Assembly: GCA_902764545.1 (NCBI GenBank)
Contig: CACWWC010000011.1
Coordinates: 1 to 45,694, forward strand
DNA length: 45,694 bases
Direction: 5' to 3'
Source of the DNA: an uncultured Erysipelotrichaceae bacterium
GTDB taxonomy: Bacteria > Bacillota_I > Bacilli_A > RF39 > UBA660
Positions 40,642 through 45,379 of the stretch are shown piece by piece. Below the pieces are notes generated by a model. That model worked only from the letters and a program-made list of their open reading frames with translations, did no database searches and was not told the DNA's origin. Position numbers and translations under genes: made by a program. The stretch's first letter is position 1; every line of letters starts with the position of its first letter.

Positions 40642-40669
40642 AAAAAAGAGTTTTCAAAAACTCTTTTTT
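40642..40669. terminator. Bidirectional terminator between DUF975 and rnhC
   Basis: An A-rich arm plus GAGTTT pairs with AAACTC and a T-rich arm. On both strands the stem ends in T, so it can stop the DUF975 transcript and the convergent mTERF-rnhC operon. The rnhC stop codon touches its edge. Confidence 0.9.
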
Positions 40670-41580
40670 TAATATATCATTGTATGGAGTATTCTGTCTG
40701 TATTTTTAAAATTTATTTTGGCAATATCTTTTAGTTTATCTTCTCCATATTTATCGACTACTTCTTCACCAATAGTATCTACATCTTTTCCTGCACCTTT
40801 TGGAAGAGGTATATGTATTTCATCACATATTTTATCAAATTCTTTTAGGAATATATATCTACTAATTATTGATGCTGCTGCTACAGCATTATTCTTATCT
40901 TCTGCTTTTGTTAGAAAAGTGATATCTTTTTGGATATTTGTTTGATCTTTTATATATTCGTAATATCTTGCTTCTCTTGCAAATTCATCTACTATAATAT
41001 AATTGTATTTTGGTTTTTCTTCTTCAATTAATTGAAATAATACTTTATTGTGAAGTATGGCTTTTATTTTATTCATATTGATGTCTCTTGTATATTTTTC
41101 ATTATATTCTTTGTTTGTTAAAATTACACTTCTATATTTGATTTTCTTTGCTATTTGAGGTGCAATTTTTAATATTTTACTATCATCTATTTTTTTTGAG
41201 TCCCCTACACCTAAACTTTCTAAATATTCTATATCATCTTTTGATACGTAACAAGCAGTAACTACTATTGGACCGAAGTAGTCTCCGGTACCAACTTCAT
41301 CTGATCCTACAGCACTACAGTCATAATATTTTAAATCTTGCTTTTTTCTTTCTTCTTTTTTTTCTTTTGTGTTTTCCAATGCAACACCCCACATAGCTGC
41401 ATCTACATCTGCACTTGTTCCTTGAAACATTACTTTTCCTGATTCATACATCGTTATTACTGTATCTTCCTCTTGTGCTTGAAAGACTACATATGGAATG
41501 ACTTTATCTCTTCTTTTATCTTTATAGTATTCAATCATTTTTTCTTTTATTTCATCGTTTACTTTGATTACTACGTTCAT
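40669..41580 (-). CDS. rnhC: Ribonuclease HIII
   Basis: The 303-residue protein has an N-terminal TBP-like domain (about residues 1-85, with VMFQGTSADVDAAMWG), then the RNase H catalytic domain with GSDEVGTGDYFGPIVV, the VDEF strand and KAEDKNNAVAAASIISRY. It cleaves RNA in RNA-DNA hybrids, removing R-loops and primers. The ATG follows AAGGAGGA on the minus strand. It is the last gene of an operon with two mTERF-like repeat proteins, starting 10 bases after the stop of the shorter one. Confidence 0.95.
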   Translation of the reverse strand: MNVVIKVNDEIKEKMIEYYKDKRRDKVIPYVVFQAQEEDTVITMYESGKVMFQGTSADVDAAMWGVALENTKEKKEERKKQDLKYYDCSAVGSDEVGTGDYFGPIVVTACYVSKDDIEYLESLGVGDSKKIDDSKILKIAPQIAKKIKYRSVILTNKEYNEKYTRDINMNKIKAILHNKVLFQLIEEEKPKYNYIIVDEFAREARYYEYIKDQTNIQKDITFLTKAEDKNNAVAAASIISRYIFLKEFDKICDEIHIPLPKGAGKDVDTIGEEVVDKYGEDKLKDIAKINFKNTDRILHTMIY

Positions 41581-41590
41581 AATTCCTCCT

Positions 41591-41980
41591 TTATATTAAT
41601 TCAACTGATTCATAAAAAAAGTATTCAGTTATTTTTTCTTTTGAAAAACCTTCTTTTTTTAATTCTAAATATTTTTTATTAATTGTTTCATAACTAATAT
41701 TTAATATATATGGGTTTATATCAAGCAATAAATTAATATTATCAAGTTCCAATTCTTTGAACTTTTTTATTAGTTTTTCTATGTCGTTTAAATTTTTACT
41801 GATACAAAAAGGATTTGTTATAAAAATGTTTTTAATATTATTACTTAGACATCCAACACTTCCTAAAAGATCAATTAAACTATATATATCATTGTCACTT
41901 ATGTTTCCTATTTCTTCGTTTGAATCCATCATATTTTTTATCTCTTCAATACTAAATCCATATCTTATTAGTACATCCAT
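41591..41980 (-). CDS. Short mTERF-like repeat protein
   Basis: The 129-residue helical protein has repeat units like those of its upstream neighbour: IFITNPFCISKN and LLLDINPYILNIS, with conserved Pro at residues 57 and 90. Each is followed by an I-x-x-K-x-x-x-L helix (IEKLIKKFKELEL, INKKYLELKKEGFSKEKI). It probably holds three to four repeats. The start overlaps the TAA of the longer gene by one base after AAGGGGGAA, so the two are coupled and may have arisen by splitting of one gene. Its role is unknown; mTERF folds bind nucleic acid. Confidence 0.65.
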   Translation of the reverse strand: MDVLIRYGFSIEEIKNMMDSNEEIGNISDNDIYSLIDLLGSVGCLSNNIKNIFITNPFCISKNLNDIEKLIKKFKELELDNINLLLDINPYILNISYETINKKYLELKKEGFSKEKITEYFFYESVELI

Positions 41981-43155
41981 TAATAATTCCCCCTTATTAA
42001 TTCATCTATCTTGATATTATACTTATTATAAAAATATGTATCTTTTTCAAATAAATCATTTTTTATTATATCAAAGCTAATATTATTATATTTTAAAAAC
42101 TTGTATCTATTTCGAATTAACATTAAACTATATGTCAGATATTTTGGATTCTCTTTAATAATATTTAGTAGGTCATTTTTCTTGTAGAAATCTACCTTGT
42201 CTTTTATTTCATTTTTATTATAACCAATTATAATTGGTTGATTTAGAATTGCTTTTTTTATTTCATTTTCATTAAAATTCAATGATACTAAATTATTATA
42301 ATTTTCATTTATCAATTCAATAGAATATAGAAGTATATATGGATTTTTTATTGTGATTTCTACAATTTCATTATTGTCAAAATGCTTTTTTAGGTTATCT
42401 AGTTTAGCTTCTATTTGATTTAGATAATTATGTTTGAGTATGATAGGTATTTTTTTTATGATATTTATAATATCCTCTTTTCTATATCCATATTTTTCTA
42501 GTGTAATTATTTTGTTTTCTATTTTGTTGTTTTCATATATATATAATTCAGGTAAATATGAAGTAATGTTAATAAAGTCTTTTTTACTTAAACCCAGTTT
42601 CATTGAGTCATTAATTTTTTTGTTTATTTTGGAGATTGATATTTCAATTAAATCAGGGACTGTTGTGATTATGTTAATTATATCTTTACTTTTATATCCT
42701 ATTTCTTTAAAATCATTAATTCTTTTTTTTATGTATGAATTATCTAGATTTATGATCTCCGGTTTTGTTTTAATTATTTTAATTATTTTATCAGTCTTTA
42801 GATTAATTGAAGCAAAAAACAAAAATTTATTTTTTATTTTGCCTTTTGATATATCTATTATATATGGATAGTCTTTGATTATATTGAATGTATCTATTTT
42901 GTTGATTCCAAATTCATTTAGTTCTTTTATTTTTTGTTTTATGGTATCTGTACTTGTATATGTTATCTTTGGAAATATTAGAGTTATTTTTTTAATATCT
43001 TTGTTATTAAAACCACTTTTATGGAAATAATTTACGAGACTTTTAAAATTATAGAGTATATCTGAATTTTTATAGCTTGTCATTCTATATGTTTTCTTGA
43101 GCATTTCTTTTTCTTCTTCTGTATATCCAATGTTTGACATATATTCATCTAACAT
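41980..43155 (-). CDS. mTERF-like helical repeat protein (nine 35-residue units)
   Basis: The 391-residue protein is made of repeated helix pairs. A proline recurs at residues 62, 97, 132, 167, 202, 237, 272 and 307, exactly 35 apart, and once more at 337. Each unit reads roughly P-x-I-I, then a helix I-x-x-K-I-x-x-L/F-x-x-x-G-Y/I/L, then K-x-D-I-I-N-I-I. This matches the mTERF repeat of mitochondrial and chloroplast nucleic-acid-binding proteins (PxL...LxxxGl..i). The repeats are Lys/Asn/Ile-rich, with no membrane segment. ATG 43155 follows GAGGTG. It leads an operon with a short homologue and RNase HIII. Confidence 0.75.
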   Translation of the reverse strand: MLDEYMSNIGYTEEEKEMLKKTYRMTSYKNSDILYNFKSLVNYFHKSGFNNKDIKKITLIFPKITYTSTDTIKQKIKELNEFGINKIDTFNIIKDYPYIIDISKGKIKNKFLFFASINLKTDKIIKIIKTKPEIINLDNSYIKKRINDFKEIGYKSKDIINIITTVPDLIEISISKINKKINDSMKLGLSKKDFINITSYLPELYIYENNKIENKIITLEKYGYRKEDIINIIKKIPIILKHNYLNQIEAKLDNLKKHFDNNEIVEITIKNPYILLYSIELINENYNNLVSLNFNENEIKKAILNQPIIIGYNKNEIKDKVDFYKKNDLLNIIKENPKYLTYSLMLIRNRYKFLKYNNISFDIIKNDLFEKDTYFYNKYNIKIDELIRGNY

Positions 43156-43236
43156 ATAGTATTCACCTCGAATTTATTATAGCATAATTTTATTAAATAG
43201 TTTATAATGAATGTAGAGATAGTAGAGGTGATTTGT
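43156..43236. promoter_or_regulatory. Divergent promoter region
   Basis: On the minus strand TATAAT lies near 43175-43180, ahead of the GAGGTG of the mTERF-like gene. On the plus strand TATAAT is at 43203-43208, ahead of the GAGGTG of the CvpA gene. -35 boxes are poor in both directions. Confidence 0.55.
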
Positions 43237-43962
43237 GTGCTTAATATATTTGATATAGGAATTATTCTAATTCTTATTATGTTTGTGGTTGTGGGATTTA
43301 AAAAAGGGGTTATAAAAGAAAGCGTCTCTTTAATTGCTTTTATCATTGTCTTTGTTTTATCTTGGTTATTAAAAGGGGTAATTGGTAATTTTTTGTGTAT
43401 ATATTTTCCTTTTTTTAAATTTAGCGGGGTAATTAGTGGACTTAGTAGTTTAAATATTTTAATATATCAATTAATTGCTTTTATAATAGTTTTTGGATTT
43501 TTACTTGGATTCTATTCTTTGGTTTTAAAGATTTCAAAGGTTTTTCAAAAGATTGTTAATATGACTTTGGTTTTATGGATACCATCTAAAATATTGGGTG
43601 CTTTGGTTTCATTTATAAAAGGATATTTATGTGTATTTATTTGTTTAGTATTTCTTATAATTCCTTTGGGAGGTTCCAATATCTTTCAAGATAGCAATAT
43701 GATTAATTATATTTTATATAAAACCCCAATATTATCTAATTTTACGGGCTCTTTTGTTAATCCTATTAATGAAATATATTCATTAAGTGAAGATGTTTCA
43801 AATAATAAGATTAGTGTTAATGATGTGAATATAAGAGCAATCAGTATTATGCTTAAGTATAAAGTTGTAAATTATAAGACTTTAGATATTATTTATAATA
43901 GGAATAAACTTGAAAATGTTGATGGACTTGATAGTATTTTACATAAAGAGGAGGATTTATGA
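43237..43962 (+). CDS. CvpA-family membrane protein
   Basis: The roughly 241-residue protein has four to five membrane helices. The first begins NIFDIGIILILIMFVVVGFKKGVIKESVSLIAFIIVFVLSWLLK, the CvpA/YshB start (D..i......G...G........). A hydrophilic C-terminal part follows. CvpA proteins are linked to envelope stress and colicin V export in E. coli; the molecular role is unclear. GTG 43237 lies 6 bases after GAGGTG (43225-43230); the ATG at 43207 is upstream of that site. It is coupled to trx by an ATGA overlap. Confidence 0.8.
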   Translation: MLNIFDIGIILILIMFVVVGFKKGVIKESVSLIAFIIVFVLSWLLKGVIGNFLCIYFPFFKFSGVISGLSSLNILIYQLIAFIIVFGFLLGFYSLVLKISKVFQKIVNMTLVLWIPSKILGALVSFIKGYLCVFICLVFLIIPLGGSNIFQDSNMINYILYKTPILSNFTGSFVNPINEIYSLSEDVSNNKISVNDVNIRAISIMLKYKVVNYKTLDIIYNRNKLENVDGLDSILHKEEDL

Positions 43963-44611: not shown

Positions 44612-45379
44612 ATGAGGACTAGAGATTATATTAATAACAAAAAGATTAGTAATAACAAAAAAATTGAAAAGTTAAAGAAGAAAAGTAAGCTGTTTGACTT
44701 TATAAGTTTTGGAGGAGCGGTTTTGGGCTTTTCACTAGCAGGTTGCTTACTTTTATATAGTATTGTTCCAAGTGTTGTATGTTTAGGGCTAGGAGCTGGT
44801 TTTTTATCTTCTAATATAAAAAACAGAAAAGTTACGGATTCTAAAGTTAGAGAGATAAATAATCAAAACGACTTTCTAGATAAAACTTTAGAGGGTAATA
44901 TTGATGCTAGTTTGGAGAAGAATAAACAACGTAAAGGTTTATTAAAACAATATAGTGGTGAACTTAAAGATGAGGAAGACAATGTAAATAAATCTAATAT
45001 TAGAGATTATATTATAGCTGGTGCGTTAGGAGTTTTAGCTGGGGTTGGTTTTATGTTTGGAGGATTTACATGTTTATTTAGCCCCCTTGTTGCAGGATTA
45101 AAGTTTATTGCAAATTCTGCTACTTCTCATGATATTGATGAATGTGAAAAAGTTAAATCTAAAGCTAACAATGTAAAAAACGAACTTGATATCATTGATA
45201 ATGCATCAAATAATGTTAGTGGTAGAAGGCCTTCTAGGGCTAGAGCGCTTACATCAAAAAGAGAAAATGAAAGACATTATTCTAAGGCGGATATTGAAGC
45301 TGTAGATGATTATGTAGAAAGTTTAGCTAATGAGGGTTCTATTTCAAATGGTAATTCTAAGATGATAGTAAAGAAATAA
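44612..45379 (+). CDS. Unknown membrane protein with two hydrophobic hairpins
   Basis: The 255-residue protein has a basic N-terminus and two glycine-rich hydrophobic regions: residues about 30-62 (FISFGGAVLGFSLAGCLLLYSIVPSVVC...) and about 132-165 (YIIAGALGVLAGVGFMFGGF...). A Lys/Glu/Asn-rich coiled segment lies between them, and the C-terminus is hydrophilic with RRPSRARALTSKR. The two halves look like an internal duplication of one hairpin-plus-coil unit. ATG 44612 follows AGGTGA. No family is recognised. Confidence 0.65.
   Translation: MRTRDYINNKKISNNKKIEKLKKKSKLFDFISFGGAVLGFSLAGCLLLYSIVPSVVCLGLGAGFLSSNIKNRKVTDSKVREINNQNDFLDKTLEGNIDASLEKNKQRKGLLKQYSGELKDEEDNVNKSNIRDYIIAGALGVLAGVGFMFGGFTCLFSPLVAGLKFIANSATSHDIDECEKVKSKANNVKNELDIIDNASNNVSGRRPSRARALTSKRENERHYSKADIEAVDDYVESLANEGSISNGNSKMIVKK

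Follow-up and report, generated by a model that had tools for sequence, protein, structure and literature searches.

What is a protein of the mTERF family doing on a bacterial chromosome? Published accounts call mTERF proteins modular proteins of eukaryotes (PMC7909791) and state that prokaryotes lack them (PMC3414458), and in the partial collection of literature that we searched we found no work on bacterial mTERF proteins. The question is raised by a 45,694-nucleotide stretch of DNA from an uncultured Erysipelotrichaceae bacterium (hereafter the window, which means the whole stretch that was analysed), in which an earlier note, made from the sequence alone, had pointed to an open reading frame for an mTERF-like repeat protein with a period of 35 residues. 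That note had the reading frame, its prolines and its family right; absent from it were the strand on which the gene lies (minus), the second mTERF gene that adjoins it and the operon with an RNase HIII gene.

A bacterial mTERF-family protein built from 35-residue repeats

The gene, here called mTERF-L (41980..43155, minus strand), has an ATG start and encodes a 391-aa mTERF-family protein with nine three-helix repeats of period 35. On the evidence of an AlphaFold2 model and the proline register, the repeat array spans approximately residues 51–356 (42088..43005, minus strand). All nine of the prolines that had been listed, at residues 62, 97, 132, 167, 202, 237, 272, 307 and 337, are present in the 391-aa ORF, and the distances between them are seven of 35 residues and then one of 30, the ninth repeat being shortened to 30 residues. 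A run of eight prolines spaced by 35 occurred in none of 100,000 residue shuffles of mTERF-L, among which the longest run was four, and the self-identity of the protein is maximal at a lag of 35 (0.219, compared with at most 0.128 at other lags from 28 to 42). The 31 aligned mTERF-L sequences, which apart from the window protein itself share 27–48% identity with it, all carry prolines 62, 97 and 237, and conservation is 90% or higher at prolines 202, 272 and 307; because the register is kept among members of such low identity to the window protein, it reflects more than chance. The AlphaFold2 model, which was built from 37 sequences and has a mean pLDDT of 92.6, contains nine three-helix repeats, each made up of a 10-residue helix, the proline, a helix of 4–5 residues and a helix of ~13 residues, and the helix-turn-helix pattern that had been claimed for each repeat is borne out by it. 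The repeats also share a conserved basic site at P+13 and a conserved acidic site at P−9, which may be structural or may point towards nucleic acid.

In a Pfam search mTERF-L matched mTERF (PF02536) at 153 bits (E = 1.2e-44), the curated cut-off for this family being 23.1 bits. Placement by profile in an unrelated repeat family, which the earlier note had named as the outcome that would count against it, was not seen: mTERF was the sole Pfam family matched, and PPR, TALE and HEAT profiles gave no Pfam match in mTERF-L (for PPR, none at E values up to 0.001). When a profile of mTERF-L relatives was compared with all PDB sequences, human MTERF3 (PDB 3m66) was the best match among solved structures (E = 1.4e-20), followed by MTERF1 (8e-18), the Tetrahymena mitoribosomal protein mS93 (3e-15) and MTERF4 (~1e-12). 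The comparison of an AlphaFold model with solved structures, proposed as a check, gave a superhelix of three-helix repeats, and among PDB entries it is matched best by human MTERF1 and MTERF3. In particular, Foldseek placed MTERF1–DNA complexes on top (3n6s, E = 3.7e-9), and VIA-align superposed mTERF-L on MTERF1 with a Z of ~20 over 305–310 residues and an rmsd of ~6, a value that probably indicates the same fold with a different superhelical pitch; for MTERF3 (3m66) the rmsd was 3.2 over 250 residues.

The mterf motif of MTERF1 consists of three helices with a proline-capped S-loop (PMC4705650), and mTERF-L conforms to the definition given there in having repeats of a length within the stated ~30–35 residues, with three short helices and a conserved proline that caps the loop. 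Like human MTERF1 (PDB 3n6s, 3mva) it has three-helix, proline-capped repeats, and its fold matches that of MTERF1 over the whole length (Z 20, 20% identity). MTERF1, with eight 33-residue motifs (PMC4705650), is organellar, nuclear-encoded and without an operon partner, whereas mTERF-L is bacterial, has nine stricter 35-residue repeats, is acidic in some species and is joined to a small mTERF protein and RNase HIII. Rather than being encoded in a nucleus and targeted to an organelle, mTERF-L is carried on a bacterial chromosome, in an operon with rnhC, in 32 species; location in an organelle was a feature of the earlier members and does not belong to the structural definition of the mTERF sequence family. 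We therefore regard it as close to certain that 41980..43155 encodes a true mTERF-family protein. That mTERF-L binds nucleic acid is likely, judging from its family and its modelled fold. Conservation at the positions that correspond to DNA contacts in MTERF1 (P−2, P+1 and P+4) does not significantly exceed that at other exposed positions (p = 0.24), and the net charge of mTERF-L ranges from −14 to +17 across species (mean −1.7), so that the protein is not consistently basic.

A small mTERF protein and RNase HIII share a predicted operon with mTERF-L

The gene next downstream of mTERF-L (41591..41980, minus strand), whose ATG overlaps the mTERF-L stop codon by one base, encodes an acidic 129-aa mTERF protein with three repeats, here called mTERF-S. 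It matches Pfam mTERF at 33.7 bits (E = 2e-8; cut-off 23.1) and is related to mTERF-L by profile comparison (E = 4e-14); its predicted model (pLDDT 93.2) has three repeats, and its PDB matches are human MTERF3 and MTERF1. In a 33-sequence alignment the strongly conserved signatures of mTERF-S are NP[FY], D-x-NPYLLN and an invariant Cys44, and the protein is acidic in every species (net charge −2 to −17). The third gene of the operon, rnhC (40669..41580, minus strand), encodes a product with matches to RNase_HII (145 bits) and to DUF3378, the N-terminal domain of RNase HIII (76 bits), which identifies it as RNase HIII. RnhC is ~80–87% identical in nearly all members of the genus. An RNase HII-type gene is also present, apart from rnhC, on a different contig (C28).

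The order mTERF-L, mTERF-S, rnhC is found in all 31 other species of the genus that carry these genes with rnhC, counting a few loci in which the contig stops inside one operon gene, and the intergenic distances at these loci range from overlaps to at most ~17 bases. Upstream, an extended −10 promoter, TATGCTATAAT (43176..43186, minus strand), lies 20 bases before the mTERF-L start codon, and TATGCTATAAT is present in 30 of 30 leaders from the genus. It stands back-to-back with the divergent −10 of cvpA, GTTTATAATG (43200..43209, plus strand), and the spacing of 14 bases between the cvpA TATAAT box and the extended −10 of the operon is fixed in 28 of the 30 leaders; a search with the back-to-back pattern gave one match in the window and zero in shuffles. 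At the other end, a bidirectional, A/T-rich terminator hairpin (40642..40670), read directly from the DNA, ends the operon and folds at −10.2 kcal/mol (z −3.5). A consensus terminator scan did not list this hairpin, probably because its stem is A/U-rich. A single predicted promoter and terminator would thus serve mTERF-L, mTERF-S and rnhC. Eukaryotic contamination as the origin of the mTERF genes is ruled out by the same operon in 32 separately assembled species, by the bacterial promoter and by the gene overlaps.

Two observations concern the flanking genes. The start listed for cvpA (43207) overlaps that gene's own −10 box, TATAATG (window 43200–43240), and the true start therefore probably lies downstream, after AGGTGA at ~43225. 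A 255-aa ORF at 44612–45379 of the window has no Pfam match and is poorly conserved downstream of trxA across the genus.

The mTERF pair was inserted between rnhC and its promoter

Among the other genera of the family that we inspected, most have rnhC adjoining cvpA with no mTERF gene in between. Within the same genus, one genome (G015) has the same back-to-back promoter leading directly into rnhC and no mTERF gene, and in another genus a genome (G054) has the same extended −10 directly before rnhC, again with no mTERF gene. These arrangements place the insertion of the mTERF pair between rnhC and its promoter. The rnhC-linked mTERF-L sequences form one clade (support 100/100), as do the rnhC-linked mTERF-S sequences (99/98), which fits a single insertion. 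In the rnhC tree G015 falls among the carriers, with a placement that is not resolved, and G054 falls inside the carriers on a longer branch; the tree suggests that both genomes are clean losses of the pair.

The two mTERF proteins change together and fast. The distances of mTERF-L and mTERF-S are correlated at 0.81 (Mantel), compared with only 0.53 between mTERF-L and RnhC and 0.41 between mTERF-S and RnhC, and both mTERF proteins evolve several times faster than RnhC, the median identity of mTERF-L being 38%. dN is nevertheless lower than dS for both genes in all close pairs tested, with ratios of ~0.08–0.5, and mTERF-L and mTERF-S are therefore both selected proteins. The operon of mTERF-L, mTERF-S and rnhC is thus shown to be conserved throughout a genus of Bacilli, uncultured and from the gut, and to be maintained by purifying selection.

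Six further genomes of the genus (G014, G016, G017, G025, G034 and G038) are without cvpA, rnhC and both mTERF genes together; RNase HII is still present in five of the six. With a completeness of 94% or more in two of them, a true loss of the region is possible there. The joint loss of rnhC and the mTERF genes is weak evidence, because several of these genomes are incomplete and the whole region is gone.

mTERF pairs occur at other loci in the same family

Of 291 genomes sampled from the family, 22 encode an mTERF protein above the Pfam cut-off, and in two overlapping samples, one of 395 genomes from the class and one of 392 from the phylum, such proteins were confined to this one family; the 14 control genomes that were our sole sample of other phyla gave no mTERF match. 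The named carriers are metagenome-assembled uncultured Bacilli, many of them from rumen or gut, and include Candidatus Aphodocola excrementigallinarum. A phage or plasmid origin of the pair was rejected, there being no relatives in the plasmids, phages and viral contigs searched.

Outside the genus the pairing of mTERF-L with mTERF-S persists at other loci, in the order L-S or S-L or with mTERF-S between two mTERF-L genes, and no linkage to rnhC was seen there. At the loci inspected in other genera the neighbours are mostly nucleic-acid genes. Those confirmed by Pfam are SSB, RecO, the large and small subunits of exonuclease VII (XseA/XseB) with NusB, a DinB-type polymerase, Era, a SpoU/MRM3-like rRNA methylase with RimM, RelA/SpoT and a YgjP-like metallopeptidase; TrmD, beside a pair in another genus, was judged by its start sequence.

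Several loci stand apart. Clusters of three to four mTERF genes, including one mTERF-S, are present at L173 (G137), L111 and L174–L175 (G140) and represent local expansions of the family. At L171 (G229) an mTERF-L gene lies close to an apparent C5 DNA methylase, recognized by its start, and to a gene whose product combines PIN and sigma-70 region 4 domains; this could be a defence island. An ORF of ~100 aa with a weak mTERF-like match recurs in several genera (L133, L136, L137, L139, L141 and L211–L215), where inspected behind conserved ORFs of ~360–390 aa and ~185–350 aa, and at L186 and L187 near an apparent UvrD/PcrA-type helicase; it is possibly a short mTERF relative or a chance resemblance. 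A divergent mTERF-like protein of ~150 aa is encoded at L182, L185 and L068–L070, and at L069, L182 and L185 it adjoins a protein of 550–880 aa with at best weak Pfam matches (HNH_4, DUF7947).

Possible functions of the mTERF pair

In organelles, mTERF proteins act on duplex DNA, where they halt polymerases or make them pause, or on structured RNA, to which they bind. The best of several readings of the bacterial proteins, which we offer tentatively and with somewhat less than even confidence, is that the mTERF-L superhelix binds nucleic acid and, together with RNase HIII, deals with RNA:DNA hybrids or transcription roadblocks. mTERF-L would bind along the inner face of its superhelix, and mTERF-S, since it is acidic and coevolves with mTERF-L, would dock on mTERF-L or regulate it, itself not binding nucleic acid. 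Encoded on the same mRNA as RNase HIII, the two proteins would act where RNA:DNA hybrids form, and would either mark or block the hybrid sites or limit transcription there, RNase HIII then clearing the hybrid, in a division of labour of the kind proposed for MTERF-type proteins and RNase H1 at mitochondrial replication pause sites. The grounds for this reading are the constancy of the operon, the roles of organellar mTERF proteins and two precedents: in fly mtDNA, RNase H1 affects replication pausing at MTERF-type binding sites (PMC6433063), and in B. subtilis, RnhC clears RNA:DNA hybrids and protects replication (PMC10371020). The fly system resembles the bacterial one in that an RNase H and an mTERF, in this case RNase H1 and the MTERF-related mTTF, work at the same sites at mtDNA replication pauses (PMC6433063), but it differs in having separate nuclear genes, RNase H1 rather than RNase HIII, and no operon. 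In favour of a role at hybrids, mTERF pairs at other loci also adjoin SSB, RecO, XseA/XseB/NusB and DinB. Against it, insertion into the rnhC leader may just have borrowed a good promoter, mTERF pairs beyond the genus were not seen beside rnhC, the net charge of mTERF-L is variable and the DNA-contact positions are not preferentially conserved. RNase HIII does not need the mTERF pair, because G015 and most other genera have rnhC without it.

The main rival takes up the borrowed promoter and makes the mTERF pair a ribosome-assembly or rRNA-binding factor, like MTERF3 or MTERF4–NSUN4 in mitoribosomes, with mTERF-L gripping an rRNA segment; we consider it rather unlikely. The neighbours of mTERF genes in other genera include Era and RimM, a SpoU rRNA methylase that has an MRM3-like domain, and TrmD, judged by its start; both MTERF4 and Tetrahymena mitoribosomal mS93 are among the structure matches. 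Human MTERF4–NSUN4 is a case of an mTERF with a partner protein on nucleic acid (MTERF4 fold match, Z ~15), but its partner is a methyltransferase, whereas the constant bacterial partners are a small mTERF and RNase HIII; MTERF3, for its part, is mitochondrial, and what is known of its roles at mtDNA and ribosomes comes solely from organelles. That RNase HIII is the constant partner at 31 of 31 loci of the genus, that DNA genes (SSB, RecO, XseA/B and DinB) lie at other loci and that DNA-binding MTERF1 structures head the whole-fold matches all speak against a ribosomal role.

Human MTERF1 is a sequence-specific terminator, and the very conserved back-to-back promoter, with its extended −10 in every one of 30 leaders, could be read as the target of a sequence-specific repressor or transcription roadblock, whose sites would be this 50-bp divergent promoter of its own or a handful of places in the genome, with no relation to RNase HIII activity. 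We think this improbable. The same promoter in G015, and its extended −10 in G054, stand before rnhC with no mTERF gene at all, so the conservation of the promoter predates mTERF or does not need it, and a fixed target poorly fits the fast divergence of mTERF-L.

Slightly less probable again is a fast-evolving mobile or defence module, made up of a repeat protein and an immunity-like small partner that use host promoters. The pair does occur at many loci, sometimes in tandem copies, it evolves quickly, and in G229 the mTERF gene lies near the PIN/sigma-4 gene and the apparent DNA methylase; but relatives are absent from phages, plasmids and viral contigs, a single insertion was followed by vertical inheritance in the genus, and the neighbours are mostly housekeeping genes. 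Finally, an unrelated helical solenoid (PPR, TALE-like/BurrH or HEAT) that merely resembles mTERF is already disfavoured and highly improbable, for although PPR shares the 35-residue period and TALE-type solenoids align with mTERF-L in VIA-align, the latter do so at a Z of 8–10 only, with mTERF structures far ahead at ~20, mTERF alone matches in Pfam, and each repeat has three helices and a capping proline. BurrH (PDB 4cja), a TALE-like protein, is likewise a bacterial modular alpha-solenoid, and proteins of its type wrap DNA, but its repeats are of 33 residues and two helices, it has no sequence match to mTERF-L and its Z is ~10 as against 20; for TALE-type proteins in general, mTERF-L gave no profile match, and its modelled repeats have three helices.

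Implications for the mTERF family

The mTERF family itself is known, and some bacterial entries may already stand under PF02536 in sequence databases; its bacterial home, its two-protein form and its operon with RNase HIII look new. The preferred reading, action with RNase HIII on RNA:DNA hybrids or roadblocks, can be extended to a bacterial mTERF system in which mTERF-L and mTERF-S jointly recognise hybrids or stalled transcription and work with RNase HIII, as the counterpart of mitochondrial MTERF and RNase H1, the genes having been captured from a gut eukaryote or standing near the source of the organellar family; this fuller picture is speculative and, in our estimation, doubtful. A regular bacterial array with a constant enzyme partner makes the origin of the organellar mTERF family testable, and with it the basic activity of mTERF proteins stripped of the organelle context. 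For protein engineering, its compact, regular repeats could offer a scaffold superior to that of the degenerate human mTERF proteins and, if the link to RNase HIII is functional, these Bacilli would have a new bacterial route for handling RNA:DNA hybrids.
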